From NCBI GenBank assembly GCA_030066855.1, contig JASJAU010000036.1, forward strand, positions 1 through 64,000: DNA of 64,000 bases. The letters are read 5' to 3'. Below the pieces are notes generated by a model. It did not search any database. It was given only the letters and a program-made list of their open reading frames with translations, and was not told where the DNA came from. Of the stretch, positions 27,237-38,480 are shown in pieces. Position numbers and translations under genes: made by a program. The DNA is from Paracoccaceae bacterium. GTDB lineage: Bacteria > Pseudomonadota > Alphaproteobacteria > Rhodobacterales > Rhodobacteraceae. Every line of letters begins with the position of its first letter. Positions within the stretch are counted from its first letter, which is position 1.

Positions 27237-29003
27237 ATGGAAATGACCACGGAAGAAGCCTTCGTGAAGGTGCTGCAGCGCCACGGGATCAACCATGCTT
27301 TCGGGATCATCGGGTCGGCCTTCATGCCGATTTCGGACCTCTTCCCGGATGCCGGGATCACCTTCTGGGACTGCGCCCATGAGTGCTCAGGAGGGATGAT
27401 GGCCGACGGCTACACGCGGGCGTCGGGTCGGATGTCGATGATGATCGCGCAGAACGGGCCAGGGATCACAAACTTGGTGACCGCCGTGAAGACTGCGTAC
27501 TGGAATCACACACCCTTGTTGCTGGTCACTCCACAAGCGGCCAACAAAACGATCGGACAGGGAGGCTTTCAGGAAGTAGAGCAGATGAAGCTGTTCGAAG
27601 ACATGGTGGCGTATCAGGAAGAGGTGCGCGATCCGGCGCGGATCGCCGAGGTGCTGAACCGCGTGATCCTGAAAGCGCATCGCGCCTCGGCACCCGCGCA
27701 GATCAACGTGCCGCGCGACATGTGGACTAAGGTAATCGACATCGACCTGCCCGCCGTCGTCGAGTTTGAAAGACCCTCGGGCGGTGAGGCGGCGATTTCC
27801 GCGGCAGCGGAGATGCTGTCAGAGGCTCGGTTCCCGGTGATCCTGAACGGCGCGGGCGTGGTTCTGAGCGGCGCGATCCCGGCGTCGATGGCGCTGGCCG
27901 AGCGCTTGGACGCAGCCGTGTGCGTAGGCTACCAGCACAACGACGCCTTTCCGGGATCCCACCCGCTCTTCGCGGGCCCATTGGGATACAACGGTTCGAA
28001 GGCCGGGATGGAGCTGATTGCGAAGGCGGATGTCGTGCTCGCACTGGGCACCCGGCTCAATCCTTTCTCGACCCTACCGGGCTATGGGATCGACTACTGG
28101 CCCAAGGGCGCAAAGATCGTTCAGGTCGACATCAACCCCGACCGGATTGGTCTGACCAAGCCGGTGACGGTGGGCATCGTAGGAGACGCTCGGCAGGTGG
28201 CGGAGAGCCTGTTGGAGAAGCTATCGGCCACGGCGGGCGACGCGGACCGCGCCAAGCGGAAGGCAACGATCGCCACCACCAAGTCGACCTGGGCCCAACA
28301 GCTTTCTTCGATGGATCACGAGGATGACGACCCCGGCACGACCTGGAACGAGCGCGCGCGAAACGCCAAACCGGACTGGATGAGCCCCCGGATGGCGTGG
28401 CGGGCGATTCAGGCGGCGCTGCCGAAGGAGGCGATCATCTCGTCCGACATCGGTAACAACTGCGCCATCGGCAACGCCTATCCGACGTTCGAGGCCGGAC
28501 GGAAGTATCTGGCGCCGGGGCTCTTCGGCCCTTGCGGCTACGGGTTCCCTGCGATTGTGGGCGCCAAGATCGGCTGCCCGGACGTGCCGGTCGTCGGGTT
28601 TGCGGGCGACGGCGCCTTTGGCATCTCGATGGCCGAGATGACCGCAGTGGGCCGGGGCGAATGGCCGCCGATCACCATGATTATCTTCCGCAACTATCAG
28701 TGGGGCGCCGAAAAGCGGAACACGACGCTCTGGTATGACGACAACTTCGTCGGCACCGAGCTGAATGAGGGCGTGTCATACGCCGGCATCGCCAAGGCTT
28801 GCGGGCTCGAGGGCGTGGCGGCGCGGACGATGGACGAGCTGACAGACGCGCTCAACACCGCGGTGAAGCGCCAGATGCATGACGGCAAGACCACCTTCAT
28901 CGAGGCGATGATCAATCAGGAGCTGGGCGAGCCGTTCCGCCGCGACGCGATGACCGCGCCGGTGGCGGTGGCCGGGATCGATCCGGCAGACATGCGCGCA
29001 TGA
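27237..29003 (+). CDS. xsc: Sulfoacetaldehyde acetyltransferase
   Basis: A 588-aa thiamine-diphosphate enzyme. The N-terminal block MTTEEAFVKVLQRHGINHAF, the TPP glutamate region CAHECSGGMMADGYTRASG and the C-terminal pyrophosphate-binding GFAGDGAFGISMAEMTAVG are visible. EKRNTTLWYDDNFVGTEL is characteristic of Xsc rather than acetolactate synthase. The reaction is sulfoacetaldehyde plus phosphate to acetyl phosphate plus sulfite, the C-S bond-cleaving step of taurine dissimilation in the cytoplasm. The length is normal. The ATG at 27237 or the next one two codons on are both possible. The last four bases overlap the ackA start. Confidence 0.95.
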   Translation: MEMTTEEAFVKVLQRHGINHAFGIIGSAFMPISDLFPDAGITFWDCAHECSGGMMADGYTRASGRMSMMIAQNGPGITNLVTAVKTAYWNHTPLLLVTPQAANKTIGQGGFQEVEQMKLFEDMVAYQEEVRDPARIAEVLNRVILKAHRASAPAQINVPRDMWTKVIDIDLPAVVEFERPSGGEAAISAAAEMLSEARFPVILNGAGVVLSGAIPASMALAERLDAAVCVGYQHNDAFPGSHPLFAGPLGYNGSKAGMELIAKADVVLALGTRLNPFSTLPGYGIDYWPKGAKIVQVDINPDRIGLTKPVTVGIVGDARQVAESLLEKLSATAGDADRAKRKATIATTKSTWAQQLSSMDHEDDDPGTTWNERARNAKPDWMSPRMAWRAIQAALPKEAIISSDIGNNCAIGNAYPTFEAGRKYLAPGLFGPCGYGFPAIVGAKIGCPDVPVVGFAGDGAFGISMAEMTAVGRGEWPPITMIIFRNYQWGAEKRNTTLWYDDNFVGTELNEGVSYAGIAKACGLEGVAARTMDELTDALNTAVKRQMHDGKTTFIEAMINQELGEPFRRDAMTAPVAVAGIDPADMRA

Positions 29004-30061
29004 ACCTCGGCTTGATCGTCAACGCGGGCTCGTCATCGGTGAAGATGGCGGTCCTTGGGGACGATCTGGCGCGGGTGGCGAGCGTCTCTGTCAGCGAGAT
29101 CGGCGGGCGGTCGGTCTTGTCGGGGCCGGACGACGCACAAGAGGTGGCGGCGACCGATCATGGGCGGGCGGTCGGGCTTTGCCTCGAGGCGCTCGGGGGC
29201 GATCTGGGGCGCGTCGCCTATGCCGGCCACCGGGTGGTGCATGGCGGCGACCTGACTGCGCCGATGGCGATCGGGCCGGAGTCTCTGGGCGCGATCGAGG
29301 CGGCGGTGCCGCTGGCGCCTTTGCACAACCCCGCGAACCTGGCAGGCATACGAGCGCTCGCGGCAGCGCTGCCGGAGCTTCCTCAGGCGGCGAGTTTCGA
29401 CACCGCCTTTCACGCCACGATCCCGGAGATGCGGCGGCGCTATGCGGTGCCCGATCACATCGCCGCGCGGGGGATACGCCGCTACGGGTTTCACGGGCTG
29501 AGTTACGCTGGGCTGGTCCGGCGGCTGCCGGAGATCAGCGGTGCTCCTTTGCCGGCGCGGCTGCTCGCCTGCCATCTGGGGAACGGCGCGAGCCTTTGCG
29601 CGATCCGCGAGGGGCAGTCCGTGGCGACGACGATGGGGTACTCGCCGGTCGAAGGCCTCGCGATGGGAACGCGGGTGGGAGACATAGACGCGAACGCGGT
29701 GTTGCGGCTGGCCGAGGAGGACGGGATCGACGCGGCGCGGCGGCTCCTCAACCACGAGAGCGGGCTTTTAGGCCTCTCGGGCCTGTCGGACATGCGGGCC
29801 TTGGAGGCGGCGGGGCGGAGGGACGTGATTGAACTTTTCTGCGATCGGGTGGTGATGGCGGCCGGCGCGATGATCGCCGCCATGGGCGGGATCGATGCGG
29901 TCGCGTTCACTGGGGGGATCGGGGAGAACTCGGAGACCGTTCGGGAACGGGTTGTTCACGGGCTGGCCTGGACGGGGGTGCGGAACGTTTGGATCGTGCC
30001 GGCGGATGAGGAAGGCGAGATCGCGCGGGAGGCGCGGGCCGTGTTGGGAATAGGAAACTAG
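29000..30061 (+). CDS. ackA: Acetate kinase
   Basis: A 353-aa acetokinase. The P-loop-like NAGSSSVK at residue 8, [30 protein letters not shown] (catalytic Asp), [28 protein letters not shown] and [13 protein letters not shown] are all present. The enzyme interconverts acetyl phosphate plus ADP with acetate plus ATP. At 353 residues it is about 40 shorter than common acetate kinases (about 395-400), the loss being spread over loops. The ATG overlaps the xsc stop (ATGA), so the two are coupled and the kinase would use the acetyl phosphate made by Xsc. Propionate kinase activity is also possible. Confidence 0.92.
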
Positions 30062-30215
30062 GAGTCGCCCGGGCGCAAACGCCGGGCAGCGCCCGACCCA
30101 TCCGGACATGCCTTGCGCTGCGCCCACCGAGCGGGGTCAACCCAGAACCCAAGCCTCCGCTCCTTCCCCTCCTCAAGCAACAGAGCTAGACCGGGCTGAA
30201 AGAGGAGGGACGCCG

Positions 30216-31670
30216 ATGCGCGCGCAGCCGAAAGCCAGCCATTTCGTAAACGGCCGCTACGTGGAGGACAGGGCAGGCGGGCAGATCGACTGCGTCTACG
30301 CCGCGACAGGCGAGGTCGTCGCGCGGGTCCATGAGGCGACCGACGCCGTGGTCGAAGAAGCGCTTGCCGCCGCCAGAGCCGCAGGCCCGGAATGGGCCGC
30401 CATGACCGGGACGGAGCGTGGGCGAATACTCCGCCGCGCCGCCGACATGATGCGCGCGGAGAACCGGGCGCTGTCCGAGATCGAAACGCTCGACACCGGC
30501 AAACCCCTGCAGGAAACGCTGGTCGCGGACGCGACGAGCGGCGCGGACGCGCTCGAGTATTTCGGCGGGCTGGCCGGCAGCCTGACGGGCGAGACCATGC
30601 AGCTTCCGGGCGGCGACTGGGCCTATACGATCCGCGAGCCCCTTGGCGTCTGCGTGGGGATCGGCGCCTGGAACTACCCAACCCAGATCGCTTGCTGGAA
30701 GGGGGCGCCCGCGCTCGCTTGCGGCAACACGATGGTCTTCAAGCCGTCGGAAACGACTCCTTTGTCGGCGCTGCGCGTGGCGGAAATCCTGAAGGAAGCG
30801 GGATTGCCTGACGGAGTCTACAACGTCGTTCAGGGTCGGGGCGGCGTGGGCGCGAAGCTGATCACGGATGACCGCGTGGCGAAAGTGTCGCTGACCGGGT
30901 CGGTGCCGACCGGGAAGAAGGTGTACGCGACTGCCGCAGAAGGCATGCGGCACGTGACGATGGAGCTGGGCGGCAAGTCGCCGCTGATTGTCTTTGGCGA
31001 CGCCGATCTCGACAAGGCGGTATCGGGGGCGATTTTGGGGAATTTCTATTCCTCCGGGCAGGTCTGCTCGAATGGGACGCGTGTCTTCGTCGAGAAAGGG
31101 ACGCGGGCGGCCTTTGTCGACAGGTTGGTGGAGCGCCTGCGGGGCGTGGTCATGGGCGACCCGTTGGATGAGGCGGTGAACTTCGGCCCGATGGTGAGCC
31201 AAGAGCAGATGGAGATCGTACTCGGCTACATCGAAAAGGGCGTGGCCGAGGGCGGGACGCTCGCGGCAGGCGGGCGGCGGTCGAACCGGCCGGGGTTTTT
31301 CATCGAGCCGACCGTGTTCACCGACGTGACCGACGACATGACGATCGCGCAGGAGGAGATCTTCGGACCTGTCCTGTCCGTCCTTGATTTCGAGAACGAG
31401 GACGAGGTGATGGCGCGGGCGAACGCCACGCCGTTCGGGCTTGCGGCGGGTGTCTTCACCTCGGACCTGCAAAGGGCGCACAGGGTGGTTCGCGGGTTTG
31501 AGGCGGGGACCTGCTACATCAATCATTACAACGGCGCGCCGGTCGAAATGCCGTTTGGCGGATCGAAGCTCTCGGGTGTAGGGCGCGAGAATTCGAAGCT
31601 GGCGATCAATCACTATTCCGAACTCAAGGCGGTCTATGTCGGCATGGGGGATGTCGAGGCGCCGTTTTGA
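30216..31670 (+). CDS. betB: Betaine-aldehyde dehydrogenase-like aldehyde dehydrogenase
   Basis: A 484-aa NAD(P)-dependent aldehyde dehydrogenase. [18 protein letters not shown], the catalytic Glu in [10 protein letters not shown], the catalytic Cys in [11 protein letters not shown] and [10 protein letters not shown] are in order. The overall pattern is that of BetB, which oxidises betaine aldehyde to glycine betaine, though related aldehydes cannot be excluded. AGAGGAGGGA precedes the ATG at 30216 and decides the start. It lies 154 nt after ackA and overlaps the downstream transporter, so the two form a unit. The other choline-pathway genes (betA, betI) are not in the window. Confidence 0.85.
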
Positions 31671-32515
31671 GCCTGACGGTCTTCTTCGCGGTCCTGCTGG
31701 CGGCTTTGTTGCACGCCTCTTGGAACGCGGCGGTTAAGGGCGGACCGGACAAGCTTCTGGCGATGTCGTCTGTGATCCTGGGGCATGTGCCCTTCGCGCT
31801 GGCCTCGCTTTTGATCGCGCCCGCGCCTGAGCCGGCGTCCTATCCTTATCTGGCGGCGGGCGTCGCCTTGCACTTGGGCTATCAGCTTTTCCTCGTGAAA
31901 TCATACGCTTTGGGGGATCTGACACAGGTCTATCCAATCGCGCGCGGGTCCGCGCCCTTGATTGTCGCAGTCGTGTCTGTCGGGTTTCTGGGCGTGGCCC
32001 TGAGCATTGGGGAGGTGGTCGCGGTCCTTCTGATCGCTTGCGGCATTCTCAGCCTCGCGCTGGTGCGAAAGGCGGACGGGCAGCGAAACGGACGGGCGGC
32101 AGCGCTGGCGCTCACGACCGGCTGTTTCATCGCCGGATACTCGCTTGTCGACGGATTGGGGGCGCGGGCGGCGGGCACGTCGCTGGGGTTCTTCGCTTGG
32201 CTGGCGGTGTTCAACGGAGGTTTGATGGCGATCTTTCTCGCGCTGCGATCGCCCGAGACGCTCAGGGCGGTGCCCAAAGCCGGGCGGGGCCTGTTCATCG
32301 TTGGCGGCGGCGCAAGCTTCATCGCCTTCGCGATTGTCACCTGGGGCTTCACCCAGGCGCCGATCGCGCTTGTCGCGGCGCTCCGCGAAACGAGCATCAT
32401 CTTCGCGCTGCTGATCGGGGTCGTGTTCCTGAAAGAGCCGCTGAATTTGCTAAAAGTAGCTTCCACGATGCTGACGATCTGCGGGGCGGTCCTTCTCCGG
32501 GCGGCGCGGCAATAA
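31667..32515 (+). CDS. DMT-superfamily (EamA) transporter
   Basis: A 282-aa membrane protein with two EamA repeats. [17 protein letters not shown] at the N-terminus and [20 protein letters not shown] in the first half are typical of this branch, and [19 protein letters not shown] marks the second. Translation appears to begin at a TTG overlapping the betB stop (TTGA), so it is coupled to the aldehyde dehydrogenase and may move a related compatible solute or amine. The TAA stop lies within the A-run that is the CcsR terminator T-run on the other strand. Confidence 0.82.
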
Positions 32516-32520
32516 AAAAA

Positions 32521-32552
32521 CGGCGGCATCCGGGAGGAGGTGGATGCCGCCG
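32521..32552 (-). ncRNA. CcsR4-like hairpin RNA, also the intrinsic terminator of the locus
   Basis: On the minus strand an 11-bp stem (CGGCGGCATCC with GGATGCCGCCG) carries the loop ACCTCCTCCC, followed by seven T residues (complement of 32514-32520). The loop contains the CCUCCUCCC motif of the CcsR RNAs. The T-run makes this last copy a Rho-independent terminator for the ccaF1-CcsR transcript. It reaches the stop codon of the convergent DMT gene. Confidence 0.85.
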
Positions 32553-32560
32553 CATGTTGC

Positions 32561-32596
32561 AGACCGCCCAGGGAGGAGGAGAGGGCGACCTGGTCT
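32561..32596 (-). ncRNA. CcsR3-like hairpin RNA
   Basis: On the minus strand CGCCC and GGGCG pair around a TCTCCTCCTCCCT loop, with a further AGAC/GTCT pairing outside it (32561-32564 with 32593-32596). The exposed CCTCCTCCC is identical to the other three copies, while the stem sequence is different. That pattern shows selection on the loop. Confidence 0.75.
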
Positions 32597-32607
32597 CGGT
32601 ATTCCGT

Positions 32608-32641
32608 GCGGCGGCACCAGGGAGGAGGTGGGTGCCGCCGC
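32608..32641 (-). ncRNA. CcsR2-like hairpin RNA
   Basis: On the minus strand a perfect 11-bp stem (GCGGCGGCACC with GGTGCCGCCGC) presents the 12-nt loop CACCTCCTCCCT. It is the most stable-looking of the four hairpins by eye. The loop carries the anti-Shine-Dalgarno-like motif of the CcsR family. Confidence 0.8.
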
Positions 32642-32650
32642 GGTCGTCAG

Positions 32651-32674
32651 GGGCCCAGGGAGGAGGAAGGACCC
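32651..32674 (-). ncRNA. CcsR1-like hairpin RNA
   Basis: The first hairpin after the DUF1127 stop on the minus strand. GGGTCC pairs with GGGCCC (6 bp including one G-U) around TTCCTCCTCCCT. It has the weakest stem of the four but an intact CCTCCTCCC loop. It begins 17 nt past the ccaF1 stop, so it is cotranscribed and presumably released by RNA processing. Confidence 0.7.
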
Positions 32675-32690
32675 GCTGAACCTGTGGTCA

Positions 32691-32906
32691 TCAACCGCCG
32701 TAGGCGGCGCTGTAGGCGATCGCGCGGAATTGGGCGCGCGAAAGGCCGAGATCGAAAAGCTCGCGGTCGCTGAGCGTTTCAAGCTCCTCAAGCGTTTTGC
32801 GGTAGGTTCTGTAGCGCTGGACGCGCTGGTTCAGGCTTCCGATCAGTCCGGCGACGCGGTTCTCGCGCGAGGCCGAAGGCCGGGTGAATGTTTCGATAGC
32901 AGACAT
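32691..32906 (-). CDS. ccaF1: DUF1127 small protein, CcaF1-like
   Basis: A 71-aa protein starting MSAIETFTRPSASRE, ending in the DUF1127 core (TLEELETLSDRELFDLGL, then SRAQFRAIAYSAAYGG), with a basic middle (LNQRVQRYRTYRKT). DUF1127 proteins are small, arginine-rich and act in RNA-related regulation in alphaproteobacteria. The position directly upstream of four CCTCCTCCC hairpins is that of R. sphaeroides CcaF1, whose mRNA gives rise to CcsR1-4 under RpoHI/RpoHII control. The short start is used because the upstream extension is unlike the family. An rpoH gene lies about 20 kb away in this window. I could not place the promoter with certainty. Confidence 0.88.
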   Translation of the reverse strand: MSAIETFTRPSASRENRVAGLIGSLNQRVQRYRTYRKTLEELETLSDRELFDLGLSRAQFRAIAYSAAYGG

Positions 32907-32970
32907 CGCTCGTTTTCCTTCAAAGCGCGTTATCGGTAACACGCTGCGTTTCTTACCAGCCGAAAATAGG

Positions 32971-33024
32971 CAAATGCTGCGATTGCACAATGGGCAGGAA
33001 TTCAATGCTGCCATGCAGCATTTG
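32971..33024. promoter_or_regulatory. Inverted-repeat cluster between ccaF1 and mrp
   Basis: CAAATGCTGC (32971-32980) and its exact complement GCAGCATTTG (33015-33024) form a 10-bp inverted repeat. A third copy of the core ATGCTGC lies at 33005-33011 and pairs with GCAGCAT (33015-33021) across a 3-nt gap. The group sits in the 240-nt space between the divergent ccaF1 and mrp genes and looks like an operator with three half-sites. The binding protein is unknown. Confidence 0.45.
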
Positions 33025-33146: not shown

Positions 33147-34223
33147 ATGGCGATCACGCGGGAAAGAATCCTTGACGCGCTGAAACAAATCGAGACGCCG
33201 GATGGCGGCGATCTGATCAGCCGGGACCTCGTTCGCGCGGTCCAGGTGGACGGCGGCGCTGTTTCTTTCGTGATCGAAGCGGAAAACCCGGACAAGGCGC
33301 GGATGCTCGAGGGCGCGCGCCAGGCGGCTGAGAGCGCCGTCCGGGCTATCGACGGCGTTGCGCGGGTCTCGGCGCTCCTGACCGCGCATGGACCGGCCGC
33401 GCCCAAGAAGGAGCCGCCGTCTCTGAAGATCGGCGGTCATCCGAAACCGCAACCCGCCGGACCGCAGAAGGTCTCTGGCGTCGACCGGATCCTCGCAATC
33501 GGCTCGGGCAAGGGCGGGGTCGGGAAGTCGACGGTCTCCTCCAACCTCGCGGTCGCGCTCGCCAAAGAGGGGCGTCACGTCGGGCTTCTGGACGCCGATA
33601 TCTACGGGCCGTCACAGCCTAAGATGATGGGCGTGAGCAAGCGTCCTGCCTCGCCGGATGGCAAGACGATCATTCCGCTGCACGCGTATGGCGTCACGCT
33701 GATGTCGATCGGTTTCATGATGGACCCGGCGAAAGCGGTGGTCTGGCGCGGGCCGATGCTGATGGGTGCGCTTCAACAGATGCTGGGGCAGGTCCAGTGG
33801 GGCGAGCTGGACGTGTTGATCGTCGATCTGCCGCCGGGGACCGGCGACGTGCAGCTGACGCTCTGCCAGAAGGCGGCGGTAACCGGCGCGATCATCGTCT
33901 CGACCCCGCAGGACGTTGCGCTTCTGGACGCGCGAAAGGCCATCGACATGTTCCGCACGCTCAAGACGCCGGTTCTGGGGCTCATCGAAAACATGTCGAC
34001 CTATGTCTGCCCGAAGTGCGGGCATGAAGAGCACCTCTTCGGACATGGCGGCGTCCGGGCCGAGGCCGAAACCATGGGCGTGCCGTTTCTGGGCGAGATC
34101 CCGCTGGCGCTGGACGTTCGCGTCGCTGGAGACAGCGGCACGCCGATTGCTGCCGGGGAGGGTGCGGCTGCCGAGGCCTATGGCCATCTCGCGCGCCGGC
34201 TGGTTGGCGGCGGCATGGCCTGA
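33147..34223 (+). CDS. Mrp/NBP35-type Fe-S cluster carrier ATPase
   Basis: A 358-aa protein. An N-terminal MIP18/DUF59-like region (residues about 5-80) precedes a P-loop domain. The deviant Walker A motif GSGKGGVGKST is at residues 119-129, followed by LLDADIYGPSQPKMMG, LPPGTGDVQLTL and the bridging CxxC in YVCPKCGHEEHLFG. Mrp/ApbC proteins bind and transfer [4Fe-4S] clusters in the cytoplasm. The start at 33147 gives the full MIP18 domain. It stands alone, divergent from ccaF1, with a possible hairpin (34274-34287) after it. Confidence 0.92.
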   Translation: MAITRERILDALKQIETPDGGDLISRDLVRAVQVDGGAVSFVIEAENPDKARMLEGARQAAESAVRAIDGVARVSALLTAHGPAAPKKEPPSLKIGGHPKPQPAGPQKVSGVDRILAIGSGKGGVGKSTVSSNLAVALAKEGRHVGLLDADIYGPSQPKMMGVSKRPASPDGKTIIPLHAYGVTLMSIGFMMDPAKAVVWRGPMLMGALQQMLGQVQWGELDVLIVDLPPGTGDVQLTLCQKAAVTGAIIVSTPQDVALLDARKAIDMFRTLKTPVLGLIENMSTYVCPKCGHEEHLFGHGGVRAEAETMGVPFLGEIPLALDVRVAGDSGTPIAAGEGAAAEAYGHLARRLVGGGMA

Positions 34224-34416
34224 GGGCCAGCGGCGGGAGGCGCCGGCGCGCAGGTAGAGGGCTTCGCCCCTTCGGCCCTGATGGGCCCCGCGCCCTGAAG
34301 CACTTGGTAGAGCAAAAATGGGAATGGGATTGGATGGCCCGGGGCCGGGATTCGGTCTCGATTCGGGGTGGCCTACGATCCAAACGGCGCGAATTCGCTG
34401 TTGTCTGACATTGATC

Positions 34417-34440
34417 TGGGAAAATATGGGATGGCTTTGG
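34417..34440 (+). promoter_or_regulatory. Possible MraZ repeats, distal set
   Basis: TGGG occurs at 34417 and 34427, with a degenerate TTGG at 34437, an exact 10-nt period. MraZ binds direct TGGGN repeats with this spacing. The set lies about 430 nt before mraZ, far for a classical operator, so this one may be chance. Confidence 0.3.
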
Positions 34441-34557
34441 CGGAGTCTCCGTTATCCATATTTGCCATGAAACTTTGAAAAATGAGACTATTCGGCACAA
34501 CATATTGTGACGAACTAGGGCCGTCTGACATTAAGAGCAGGAAGATCATCAACTTTT

Positions 34558-34591
34558 CCCAAAAATTTCTATTGCATCCCATGAATTCCCA
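34558..34591 (-). promoter_or_regulatory. Possible MraZ repeats, proximal set
   Basis: Read on the minus strand, TGGG occurs at 34591, 34581 and 34561, and the missing position 34571 reads TAGA. The period is exactly 10 nt over four registers. It lies just upstream of the expected start of the dcw leader RNA, where MraZ autorepression would act. Orientation is opposite to transcription. Confidence 0.45.
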
Positions 34592-34599
34592 TGGCACCT

Positions 34600-34815
34600 T
34601 CCTTTCATCGGAAGAACGGGACAGTCACGGGGCGCCAAAGACCCCACGGCAACCAAATAAGAGCAGGTTTCATACAGGCACCGCTTTTCCGATTTGAGAG
34701 ATCCGGCGCGCGGGCGAGCAGACATCCCCCCAGGTGGCGCGCGCAGCTGGAGACACCCGGAAACGGGACGAGGGCGGCGGATCGGACACTGGCAGCAGTC
34801 CGATCCGCCGTTTTC
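34600..34815 (+). ncRNA. UpsM-like leader sRNA of the dcw operon
   Basis: The stretch between the repeats and the hairpin terminator at 34776-34814 is non-coding and directly precedes mraZ. In R. sphaeroides the dcw operon has a leader of about 270 nt in which an intrinsic terminator releases the abundant sRNA UpsM (about 206 nt). The same geometry is visible here: a terminator 36 nt before the mraZ start and enough room for an RNA of that size. The 5' end is an estimate from that comparison; only the 3' end is supported directly. Confidence 0.5.
34776..34814 (+). terminator. Attenuator-like terminator in the mraZ leader
   Basis: GGCGGATCGGAC (34776-34787) pairs perfectly with GTCCGATCCGCC (34798-34809) around a 10-nt loop, followed by GTTTTC. 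A 12-bp G+C stem plus a short T-run on the plus strand, 36 nt before the mraZ start, would stop most leader transcripts and allow read-through control of the operon. Confidence 0.75.
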
Positions 34816-34850
34816 GCATCAGGGGGCCGAAACAAAGGGGCCGCGGGACA

Positions 34851-35351
34851 GTGGTTCGGAGGTTCAGAGGCGAAGGCGTCCAAAAGGTGGACGCGAAGGG
34901 CAGGGTGTCTATCCCGGCCCATTTCCGCCGTGTCCTCGAAGACGGCGACCCTGCGTGGAGCGACGGCAAGGCGCCCGAGTTCGTTGTGGTCTATGGTGAC
35001 CATCGCCGGGATTATCTTGAGTGTTTCACCATCGACAGCGCGAACGACGTAGACGCGAGGATCGACCGGCTGCCGCGCGGCTCGAAAAAGCGCCGCGCTC
35101 TGGAAAAACTCTTCAACGGTCAGTCGATGCCGATGAGCGTGGATGAGACCGGCCGGATCGTCCTGCCTGCCAGGCTGCGCCAGAAGATCGGGATCGGCGG
35201 CGAAGCCTATTTCATCGCCATGGGCGACACCTTCCAGATCTGGAAGCCGGAGACCTTCGAGACGGGCGAGGGCGATGTGGACGCCTTCCTTGACGATCAG
35301 CCCGACGGGTTCGACATCTGGGAGCTTCTGGACGAGGACGAGGAGGATTGA
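34851..35351 (+). CDS. mraZ: Transcriptional regulator / division protein MraZ
   Basis: A 166-aa protein with two AbrB/SpoVT-like repeats: [17 protein letters not shown] near residue 12 and [18 protein letters not shown] near residue 96. The D-x-K/T-G-R signature is intact in both. MraZ forms rings that bind TGGG repeats and represses the dcw operon. The start is the GTG at 34851 (VVRRFRGEG), which gives the family N-terminus and lies after the terminator; the open frame further left overlaps the hairpin and is rejected. rsmH follows after 2 nt. Confidence 0.92.
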
Positions 35352-35353
35352 CG

Positions 35354-36352
35354 ATGGCTGCCGCTGCCCCGGCCGATAATCGTCCCTCGCATATTCCTGT
35401 TTTGATTGATGAAATCCTGTCGGCCTGTGCGCCGATCGAAGGCGTTTGGGTGGACGGCACATTCGGTGCGGGCGGCTACGCGCGGGCGCTTTTGGGCGCT
35501 GGTGCGGATCGGGTGATCGGGATCGACCGCGATCCGATGGTCTTTGAGATAGCAGAGGACTGGGCCGGTGACTGGGGCGACCGGCTGCGGCTTGTTGAGG
35601 GGACTTTCTCAGAACTGGACACGTACGCGGAGGGGCCCGTTGACGGTGTTGTCTTGGATCTTGGCGTGTCCTCGATGCAGCTCGATCAGGCGGAGCGCGG
35701 GTTCTCGTTCATGGCGGACGGGCCCTTGGACATGCGGATGAGCCAGGCGGGCGCCTCGGCGGCGGACCTGGTGGCGGACGCCGATGAGACGGTGCTGGCC
35801 GACATTCTGTTTCACTACGGCGAGGAGCGGGCCTCGCGGCGGATCGCGCGGGCGATTGTTCGCGCGCGGGGCGAGGCTCCGATCGCGACGACGCGGGCGC
35901 TTGTCGAGATAGTCGAGCGTGTCCTGCCGCGTCCCAAGCCGGGGCAGAGCCACCCGGCGACACGGACCTTTCAGGCGCTGAGGATCGCGGTGAACGATGA
36001 ATTTGGCGAGCTTGTTCAGGGGCTTGAAGCAGCTGAGCGGGTGTTGAAGCCCGGCGGCTGGCTGGCGGTGGTGAGCTTTCACTCGCTCGAGGATCGGGTG
36101 GTAAAGCGGTTCTTTCAAGCGCGCTCCGGTAAGGCCGGCGGGGGCAGCCGCTACGCCCCGGAACGGATTGCGGAGGCGCCGCGGTTCGCGGCCCGGAACA
36201 AAGGCGTCACGGCGGGGCCGGAAGAGCTGGCGCGGAACCCGAGAGCGCGGTCGGCGACTCTCCGTGTCGGGCGGCGTACCGACGCGCCAGCAGGGCCGGT
36301 GGACCGCAAGGCACTCGGACTGCCCAAACTTTCAATTGGAGCGGTGTCATGA
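35354..36352 (+). CDS. rsmH: 16S rRNA (cytosine(1402)-N(4))-methyltransferase
   Basis: A 332-aa SAM-dependent methyltransferase. [10 protein letters not shown] at the N-terminus, the SAM loop [32 protein letters not shown] and [18 protein letters not shown] are diagnostic of RsmH (MraW). It methylates C1402 in the 30S decoding centre. AGGAGGA immediately before the ATG at 35354 sets the start. It is the second gene of the dcw operon, and its stop overlaps the ftsL start (ATGA). Confidence 0.95.
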
Positions 36353-36696
36353 GGTCGGCGTTTCTCGTGCTTACTGCGGTCTTCGTCATGGTGCTGGCCA
36401 TCTGGGCCTACCGGCAGAATTACGAGACGCAGGCGGAGCTGCGTGAGGTGCGGGAGCTGCGCGATGAAATCGCGGATCTGCGCGAGCGGGCGAGCGTGCT
36501 CCGCGCCGAATGGGCCTATCTGAATCGGCCGGAGCGGCTGGCGGACCTGGCCGACATGAACTTCGACCGGCTCGGGCTCTTACCTCTTCGGCCCAGCCAT
36601 TTCGGATACATCGACCAGATTACGTATCCGGTGGAGCCGGTCGCGCCGATCTCAGTTCCGATCGAGGTCATGCTACGGCTGGAGGCAGGCGAATGA
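36349..36696 (+). CDS. ftsL: Cell division protein FtsL
   Basis: A 115-aa bitopic protein. One N-terminal membrane helix ([16 protein letters not shown]) is followed by a leucine/arginine-rich coiled coil ([20 protein letters not shown]) and a periplasmic tail, the FtsL plan. FtsL bridges FtsB and FtsI in the divisome. Both ends overlap neighbours (rsmH stop/ATG and TGA/ftsI ATG), so expression is tightly coupled. Sequence conservation is low in this family, so the call leans on position. Confidence 0.88.
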
Positions 36697-38480
36697 CCCG
36701 GACGCCGCTTCGACCGCTCGCGCGCATTCTCGAGGCGCGACGTCAGGGTGAGAACCCGGACGCCATCGAGCGCGAGAACCTCCGCCAGCGGCATGAGGAG
36801 GCGCGGGACGGCGCAAGGGAGCGGGCCGAGGGACGGCTTCTGGTGCTGGGCGTGATCTTCCTCTGCGCCTTTTTCATGGTCGGGTTGAAGATGACGCTTC
36901 TGGCGGCGTCCGACCCGGCGGAGCCGCGGGCGGCGGCCTCAGGCGCGCAGATTGTGGCGGCGCGGGCGGACATCACTGACCGGAACGGGCGTATCCTGGC
37001 GACCAATCTCTCGACGCATTCGCTCTACGCCCAACCGCCCCTGATGATCGACCGCGAGCGGGCGGCGCGGGAGCTGGCGAAGATATTCCCCGATCTGGAT
37101 GAGGAGCGACTGGTCCGGCAGTTCACAGGCGAGCGAAAGTTCATCTGGATCAAGCGGCGGATCAGCCCGGAACAGCAGCAGGCGGTCTTCGACATCGGCG
37201 ATCCTGGGCTGTTGTTCGGACCGCGCGAGATGCGGCTTTATCCGAACGGTCGACTGGCGGCGCATGTGCTGGGTGGCGCCGGGTTCGGGCGCGAGGGTGT
37301 GAGCTCGGCAGAGGTCATTGGCGTGGCGGGCGTTGAGAAGGCGCTGGATGCCGAGTTGCGCGATCCTGGCCGGGGCGACGTGCCGCTTGCACTCTCGTTG
37401 GATCTGACGGTGCAGGCGGCAGTCGAGCGCGTGCTCGACGGTGGCATGACGCTGATGAACGCGAAGGGCGCGGCGGCGGTCCTGATGGACATCCACACGG
37501 GCGAGGTCCGGGCGCTGGCGAGCCTGCCGGACTTCGATCCAAACGACAGGCCGAGGCCGCTGACCGAAGGCGATCCGGGGGATTCGCCTTTGTTCAATCG
37601 CGCGGTTCAGGGCGTTTACGAGCTGGGCTCGACTTTCAAGATCTTCGCGGCGGCGCAGGGCATAGATGAGGGTCTGGTCAGCCGGTCGACGATGATGGAC
37701 ATCACCGGGCCCTTGCGTTGGGGGCCGCACAAGATCCGGGATTTTCGTAATTTTGGCAAGGCGTTGTCGGTTGAGGACGTGATCGTAAAATCCTCGAACA
37801 TCGGGACGGCGCGGATCGCGCAGAAGATCGGGGTGGAGCGGCAGCAGGACTTCCTTGGCGAACTCGGGCTCTTGTCGGCGACGCCGATCGAGCTGATCGA
37901 AGCGGGAGGCGCGCGGCCCTTGCTGCCGCCCCGCTGGTCGGAGATCTCGACGATGACGATTAGTTTCGGCCACGGCATTTCCGCAAGCCCGCTGCACCTG
38001 GCGGCGGCCTATTCGTCGGTCTTGAACGGCGGATATCAGGTCAAGCCCACGATCCTCAGGCAGGACGATCCGGTCAAAGGCCCGCGCGTGGTGAGCGAGG
38101 ACACGAGCCGGCAGGCGCGGGAGATGCTGCGGGCGGTCGTGTCGCGAGGGACGGCGAGCCTGGGCGATGTGCCCGGGTATCGCGTGGGCGGCAAGACCGG
38201 GACGGCGGACAAGGCGAAGACCCGGGGCGGCGGGTATTACGAGGATAAGGTGATCGCGAGCTTCGCGACGGTCTTTCCCGCAGACGCTCCAGAATACGTT
38301 CTCGTTGTCACTTTGGACGAGCCGGTCGAGACGAGCGGCAAGGAACCTCGAAGAACCGCGGGATGGACGGCGGTGCCAGTGGCGGCAGAGGTGATCCGCC
38401 GGGTCGCGCCGCTTCTGGGGCTGGCGCCCGGCGTTGAACCTTCTCCCCGCGCAGGTGTAACACTGGCGCGCAACGAATAA
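36693..38480 (+). CDS. ftsI: Peptidoglycan D,D-transpeptidase FtsI (PBP3)
   Basis: A 595-aa class-B penicillin-binding protein. A basic cytoplasmic leader precedes one membrane helix (LLVLGVIFLCAFFMVGLK at about residues 50-67). The dimerisation domain and the transpeptidase domain follow, with the three active-site motifs SxxK (ELGSTFKIF), SxN (KSSNIGTARIA) and KTG (GGKTGTADK). It cross-links septal peptidoglycan with FtsW. The ATG at 36693 overlaps the ftsL stop; the longer open frame covers ftsL and is rejected. Confidence 0.95.
   Translation: MTRTPLRPLARILEARRQGENPDAIERENLRQRHEEARDGARERAEGRLLVLGVIFLCAFFMVGLKMTLLAASDPAEPRAAASGAQIVAARADITDRNGRILATNLSTHSLYAQPPLMIDRERAARELAKIFPDLDEERLVRQFTGERKFIWIKRRISPEQQQAVFDIGDPGLLFGPREMRLYPNGRLAAHVLGGAGFGREGVSSAEVIGVAGVEKALDAELRDPGRGDVPLALSLDLTVQAAVERVLDGGMTLMNAKGAAAVLMDIHTGEVRALASLPDFDPNDRPRPLTEGDPGDSPLFNRAVQGVYELGSTFKIFAAAQGIDEGLVSRSTMMDITGPLRWGPHKIRDFRNFGKALSVEDVIVKSSNIGTARIAQKIGVERQQDFLGELGLLSATPIELIEAGGARPLLPPRWSEISTMTISFGHGISASPLHLAAAYSSVLNGGYQVKPTILRQDDPVKGPRVVSEDTSRQAREMLRAVVSRGTASLGDVPGYRVGGKTGTADKAKTRGGGYYEDKVIASFATVFPADAPEYVLVVTLDEPVETSGKEPRRTAGWTAVPVAAEVIRRVAPLLGLAPGVEPSPRAGVTLARNE

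Follow-up and report, generated by a model that had tools for sequence, protein, structure and literature searches.

A two-unit cuckoo RNA locus of a Paracoccaceae bacterium with a conserved pair of candidate PhaR sites in its promoter

A DUF1127 gene followed by four loop hairpins

The window analysed here, a stretch of 64,000 nucleotides at the start of contig JASJAU010000036.1 of a Paracoccaceae bacterium, carries on its minus strand a short DUF1127 gene (PF06568, 39.4 bits against a Pfam cut-off of 23.3), one of four DUF1127 matches in the whole source genome, followed on the same strand by four hairpins with the loop CCTCCTCCC and a run of seven T residues (Table 1). The open reading frame, the Pfam match, the loop positions and the fold confirm this order as given in a first-pass annotation of the same DNA. 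The seven-T terminator that it described is present as well, although it lies just outside the range given there, and the locus does abut the stop codon of a transporter gene on the other strand, as the T run overlaps the TAA stop (32513-32515) of a plus-strand EamA-family gene.

Table 1. Coordinates of the promoter elements, gene, hairpins and terminator run of the RNA locus in the window.
Feature	Position	Strand	Remarks
Site 1, ATGCTGCATGGCAGCAT	33005..33021	minus	agrees with the R. sphaeroides PhaR site CTGCNNNGCAG (PMC12542648)
Site 2, ATTGTGCAATCGCAGCAT	32974..32991	minus	TGC-N4-GCA dyad; putative -35 TTG near its 5' end
Putative -10 region, GCCTATTTTC	32962..32971	minus	RpoHI/RpoHII-like TTG ... 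TAT (PMC10673084)
DUF1127 gene, ccaF1-like	32906..32691	minus	ORF of 71 aa plus stop; Pfam match
Hairpin 1	32649..32676	minus	loop CCTCCTCCC at 32658-66; first of unit 1; weakest stem
Hairpin 2	32608..32641	minus	loop at 32620-28; second of unit 1; unit 1 is the CcsR1 match 32681-32603
Hairpin 3	32560..32592	minus	loop at 32571-79; first of unit 2
Hairpin 4	32518..32555	minus	loop at 32532-40; second of unit 2, terminator stem; unit 2 is the CcsR1 match 32597-32515
T7 terminator run	32520-32514	minus	overlaps the TAA stop of the opposite EamA-family gene

The loop sequence CCTCCTCCC occurs seven times in the window, where 0.93 occurrences are expected, and the three copies outside the array sit on stems of 3-6 pairs. 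The 196-nt stretch that holds the array folds with -94.9 kcal/mol (z = -6.0 against 200 shuffles). In an ungapped stem test hairpins 2, 3 and 4 were better than shuffled flanks (p 0.001, 0.0105 and 0.003 respectively), while hairpin 1, with 7 pairs, was not significant when taken alone (p 0.154); in the fold of the 196-nt stretch it forms part of a longer bulged helix. The loop counts, the z-score of the fold and the stem tests together rule out a chance origin of the array as a whole. The loops are spaced at 38, 49 and 39 nt, which resolves the four hairpins into two pairs.

The locus is a cuckoo RNA (CIN1) locus of two units and adds a new member to a known family. Its hairpins carry CCUCCUCCC loops on stems that vary, and they are preceded in the same orientation by a short DUF1127 gene, which the published CIN1 locus also has (PMC10253847). 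The Rfam model ar14 (RF02344) covers 32648-32516 with 61.3 bits and passes its gathering score of 58.8, whereas the model CcsR1 (RF02791) gives two matches of 55.7 and 47.0 bits, both under its gathering score of 65.3, with E-values of 7e-13 and 3e-10 in the window. The covariance check suggested alongside the first-pass annotation thus came out in favour of ar14 and, at the Rfam cut-off, against CcsR1. That annotation had placed the locus in the stress sRNA family of R. sphaeroides as a "complete CcsR1-4" set; the family holds, with ar14 passing, CcsR1 below its cut-off and the DUF1127 gene upstream, and the number of units does not. Because the CcsR1 model, 83 nt in length, spans two hairpins, the four hairpins represent two CcsR units and not CcsR1-4, as the spacing of the loops also indicates, and two RNAs of ~80 nt, rather than four, would be expected from the locus. 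The proposed reading of the loop as an anti-Shine-Dalgarno element agrees with one already in print, in which the hairpin modules vary in number between two, three and four (PMC3927594). Five further Rfam families (6C, ar7, Scr3202, anti-hemB and ncS035) scored far under their cut-offs at the array.

Of the known systems the closest is ccaF1-CcsR1-4 of R. sphaeroides (RSP_6037; RF02791), with which the window shares a DUF1127 protein of 71 aa (length as given in PMC10253847), CCUCCUCCC-loop hairpins downstream, a terminator hairpin and RpoH-like promoter elements; mrp adjoins the locus both here and in the R. sphaeroides-like locus L009. The window differs in holding two two-hairpin units instead of four or more, in a CcsR1 score under the Rfam cut-off, and in a diverged DUF1127 sequence. 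With ar14/CIN1 of Sinorhizobium (SmelA075, SmelA099) it has in common the same loop on variable stems. At L009:821-1434, in G051, which scores best of all genomes with CcsR1, there are seven CcsR1 matches and 5.4 tandem copies of 114 nt with 95% matches; the excess over the four described RNAs may mean that older assemblies collapsed the repeats, or that strains differ.

A CcsR1 match at E 0.001 was found in 121 of 149 family genomes, in 8 of the 149 above the gathering score, and in one of 14 control genomes. Weaker RF02791 matches elsewhere in the source genome (E 0.03-0.17) are likely due to chance, as 8 of the 14 controls match at that threshold, and a pair-pattern search found no further cuckoo array in this genome. 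For comparison we used the best 80 of at least 504 confirmed DUF1127 loci, ranked by similarity to the window protein. Within this set the nearest named relative, that of Kangsaoukella pontilimi (L045), is 68% identical, and the protein is a diverged one, with 31-38% identity to aligned array-linked relatives. Among the same 80 loci CCTCCTCC stands on a stem of at least 8 pairs in 430 of 506 occurrences, against 9.9% of shuffled flanks, and is enclosed by 164 different inner stem ends, which upholds the earlier description of a constant loop on variable stems. Arrays of this best-80 set hold from 0 to 14 hairpins; 75 of the 80 loci have at least one loop hairpin downstream and 68 at least two, and the other strand of the downstream 800 nt carries loop hairpins in 0/80. 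Four loci (L018, L023, L030 and L031) leave no space for a DUF1127 gene, so that these RNAs can also occur in operons that lack the protein.

The two-site promoter block

Two TGC/GCA dyads precede the DUF1127 start codon by about 100 nt. This two-site block, which lies beyond the stretch that the first-pass annotation covered, is the most unusual part of the locus. Its conservation first appeared in an alignment of the window with Kangsaoukella pontilimi L045, where the block consists of site 1 (TGCTGCATRGCAGCA), site 2 (ATTGTGCANNYGCAGCA) and then a YATNTT element. We extended the comparison to 79 upstream regions, namely those of the window and of 78 of the best 80 of at least 504 loci (L086 and L096, which have no start, were dropped). 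The exact palindrome CTGCN3-4GCAG is present in 45 of these 79 regions, where 1.2 are expected from shuffles that preserve base counts only, and in 43 of the 45 it is followed 15-45 nt on by TTGTGC or TTGTTGC, the other two not being followed by site 2. The core of site 2, TTGTGC-N3/4-GCNG or its TTGTTGC variant, was found in 76/79 regions of this best-80 set with a loose regular expression, which left three without it, and in 73/79 with a stricter one. Furthermore, the spacing is narrow: of the 69 regions that have both sites, 64 place TTG at an offset of 30 or 31 from site 1, and the offset from TTG to YATNT is 22-23 in 62 of 64 measured, for a regular expression that allowed 16-24.

In R. 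sphaeroides, promoters read by RpoHI/RpoHII carry TTG at -35 and TAT at -12 (PMC10673084), and site 2 would therefore cover the stretch from -35 towards -10. As site 2 is better conserved than site 1, and begins with TGTGC and not with CTGC, RNA polymerase may account for part of its conservation.

A strict form of the two-site pattern matched 70 times across 69 of the 148 family genomes, with no match in the control columns. It was found in 0 of 380 genomes outside the family, which sets the window apart from ar14/CIN1 loci outside the family as far as the strict form is concerned, and both matches among 385 genomes of the class fell within the family. Of the 120 genomes that match CcsR1, 68 have the strict pattern, versus 1 of the 28 that do not match it, eight of these 28 being counted as such by their absence from the list of CcsR1 matches. 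In the 30 of the 70 sites that were read, at least one loop hairpin lies within 900 nt of the block in 28 and at least two in 24, a DUF1127 motif was picked up by a narrow regular expression at 18, and two (L154 and L168) have no hairpin within 900 nt. Only 75-90 nt separate the start of the nearest dyad from the first loop in L018, L023, L030 and L031, a distance into which a DUF1127 gene would not fit, and the block therefore belongs to the RNA unit. Three arrays (L026, L029 and L032) have neither site nearby, and the R. sphaeroides-like locus L009 has a degenerate site 1.

PhaR as the candidate repressor and the competing explanations

We propose that PhaR, the sensor of polyhydroxybutyrate (PHB), represses the RNA operon through the two dyads. 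The published PhaR site of R. sphaeroides, 5'-CTGCNNNGCAG-3' (PMC12542648), is present in the promoter region as site 1, and a PhaR gene is present in the source genome (PF07879, 98.7 bits, G000:C107); the PhaR domain occurs in 143 of 148 family genomes. In 14 of the 28 family genomes without a CcsR1 match (L283-L296) the PhaR domain is of a different type (106-112 bits), with KKYANRRLY where the other 60 fetched have KRYASRRLY, and 3 of these 28 have no PhaR match. The source genome holds three exact TGCTGCN3GCAGCA sites, one at the RNA operon, one at phaP-phaC and one before an HpcH/HpaI-family gene, while its phaR has a one-mismatch copy of the palindrome immediately before the start. With up to one mismatch the palindrome occurs at 19 places in the source genome versus 7 for a reversed control; the phaR copy is therefore notable for its place and not for its rarity, and one-mismatch sites alone mean little. 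The third exact palindrome (L125:1500-1514) precedes a lyase gene (PF03328), perhaps of an acyl-CoA carbon pathway. Across 26 genomes there are 66 exact palindromes, with 4 for the reversed control; 13 of the 66 lie within 1.5 kb of phaR, 4 belong to the strict block and 49 lie elsewhere.

The phasin-like gene of the source genome is a weak match (21.2 bits against a Pfam cut-off of 24.9) next to a clear phaC, and its promoter has two dyads 28 nt apart followed by CTAT, a layout that resembles the promoter of the RNA operon. The window block shares its palindrome, in the form known from R. sphaeroides, with the PhaR-controlled phasin promoters of R. sphaeroides, Paracoccus and S. meliloti. Its layout of two dyads around -35 is shared with phaP of the source genome and with the phaP1 and phaP2 promoters of S. 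meliloti, in which two copies flank the -35 element (PMC12542648). It departs from phasin promoters in that it precedes an sRNA operon and in that its second dyad has an N4 spacer and TGTGC in place of CTGC.

The model that we infer, and consider the probable one from these sequence comparisons, is that of a cuckoo-RNA operon whose RpoH-type stress promoter is held down by PhaR on two phased dyads. The operon would encode a small DUF1127 protein, with two two-hairpin RNAs in the 3' part. The CCUCCUCCC loops of these RNAs would mimic the anti-Shine-Dalgarno sequence of 16S and block ribosome-binding sites rich in GGGAGGAGG. A stress sigma factor would start transcription from the RpoH-type promoter TTG ... 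YATNTT, and PhaR, as a PHB-binding repressor, would occupy both the dyad upstream of -35 and the dyad between -35 and -10. PHB synthesis would draw PhaR to the granule, as in Cupriavidus necator, leaving the operon to answer the stress sigma factor. If RNase E and CcaF1 of R. sphaeroides are a guide (PMC10253847), the transcript would then be cut into the DUF1127 message and the two two-hairpin RNAs.

An ordinary ccaF1-CcsR operon, transcribed by RpoHI/RpoHII alone and with the block as an extended promoter TTGTGC ... CYATNTT that has no repressor on its dyads, seems to us unlikely. It would fit the RpoHI/RpoHII promoter of the R. sphaeroides ccaF1-CcsR locus (PMC10253847), and also the start of site 2 near TTG with YATNT at its regular distance in the best-80 set. 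It leaves aside, however, that site 1 lies upstream of -35, is palindromic and is phased at 30/31 nt, and that similar dyads stand at phaP and phaR. Sigma factors have little influence on the letters between -35 and -10, and yet site 2 has conserved letters there. Furthermore, one genome without PhaR, G003, retains TTG and the -10-like element and not the dyads. It is one of five family genomes without a PhaR match (G003, G033, G090, G136 and G098); it is complete and carries a DUF1127 gene (44.8 bits) with four loop hairpins. Its promoter keeps TTG and CATATGTT, but site 1 has lost its left half and site 2 its boxes. The best dyad in the 350 nt upstream scores 9/12, a best score also reached by 48% of regions shuffled with dinucleotides preserved, and no exact palindrome site occurs anywhere in the genome. 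G033, G090 and G136 have no CcsR1 match, and G098, a genome that is 84% complete, has the two-site block with no PhaR match. The apparent association of PhaR loss with dyad damage rests on one informative genome, G003.

PhaR is assigned by motif, and another factor could read TGC/GCA dyads. That the dyads are true operators of such a different regulator is nonetheless improbable in our view. The GTGC-N4-GCAG of site 2 does differ from CTGC-N3-GCAG, and 53 of the 66 exact palindromes in the 26 genomes do not lie within 1.5 kb of phaR (4 of the 53 being the block itself), but the source genome has similar dyads at phaP-phaC and at phaR, and the dyads are damaged in the PhaR-less G003. It is highly improbable that the block controls the divergent mrp gene instead of the RNA operon. 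A divergent gene upstream with the mrp-like motif GKGGVGKS is indeed found in 55 of 67 full-length named loci of the best 80 of at least 504, yet 11 of the 30 block sites read have no mrp-like gene within ~1.5 kb upstream (a more distant or variant mrp being possible), L141, L150 and L163 among them with arrays. The promoter elements face the RNA operon, and the block directly precedes arrays where a DUF1127 gene would not fit.

A possible feedback on phaR and the setting of the locus

Should the cuckoo RNAs in turn act on phaR, PhaR and the RNAs would form a double-negative switch, with PhaR repressing the RNAs and the CCUCCUCCC loops blocking the phaR ribosome-binding site; we regard this as a doubtful extension of the PhaR model. 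The phaR ribosome-binding site of the source genome is GGGGGAGGAG, which is complementary to the loops. GGGAGG was found in 38/55 phaR regions, 7/154 background genes, 1/54 mrp genes and 0/79 ccaF1 genes, and GGAGG likewise in 0/79 ccaF1 ribosome-binding sites (best 80 of at least 504 loci, with the window). As phaR regions are orthologues and not independent, the 38/55 counts as one or few events. GGGAGG also occurs in 4/12 phaR regions of genomes without CcsR matches, and it is absent from the phaR region of G051, the genome that scores best with CcsR1. For these counts phaR starts were chosen by a Shine-Dalgarno match of at least 4, which retained 55/60 and 12/14 phaR regions; this replaced an earlier scoring by longest-ORF starts over 74 phaR regions, in which G008 had no start. 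The GGGAGG(A) that is frequent at phaR (L282, L223-L281) is unusual for the 16S tail and complementary to the cuckoo loop. If the switch were true, the state of carbon storage would gate a stress programme of broad translational control.

The RNA family, the anti-Shine-Dalgarno reading of the loop and control by stress sigma factors are known from published work, and the conserved pair of sites of apparent PhaR type in the promoter is new. In the available text of the papers that our search returned we saw no earlier link of PhaR to DUF1127, CcaF1 or CcsR, with one candidate exception, a Rhodovulum genome paper that names PhaR, phasin and DUF1127 (PMC9230146); CcsR and polyhydroxybutyrate are both mentioned in PMC10986841 and PMC11354728. 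A conserved PhaR-type operator would tie the stress RNAs to carbon storage, and R. sphaeroides, an organism kept in the laboratory with both a known PhaR and known CcsR, offers a place where this link is testable. The MmgR sRNA of S. meliloti belongs to an unrelated RNA family that is not known to have an anti-Shine-Dalgarno hairpin array. Its repression by PhaR/AniA (PMC12542648) is a case of an sRNA under PhaR control, as is proposed here.

Beyond the promoter, at 33147-38480, lies mrp followed by what appear by eye to be mraZ, rsmH, ftsL and ftsI of the dcw cluster, from whose leader the R. sphaeroides sRNA UpsM derives (PMC8625941); no Rfam match above gathering score was seen in this stretch. 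On the other side of the locus (27237-31670), xsc for sulfoacetaldehyde acetyltransferase (924 bits) shares 4 nt with an acetate kinase-like gene that scores slightly below its model cut-off (283 against 293.4 bits), and the gene after it is an aldehyde dehydrogenase by eye, which makes up a cluster of the taurine-type sulfonate kind.
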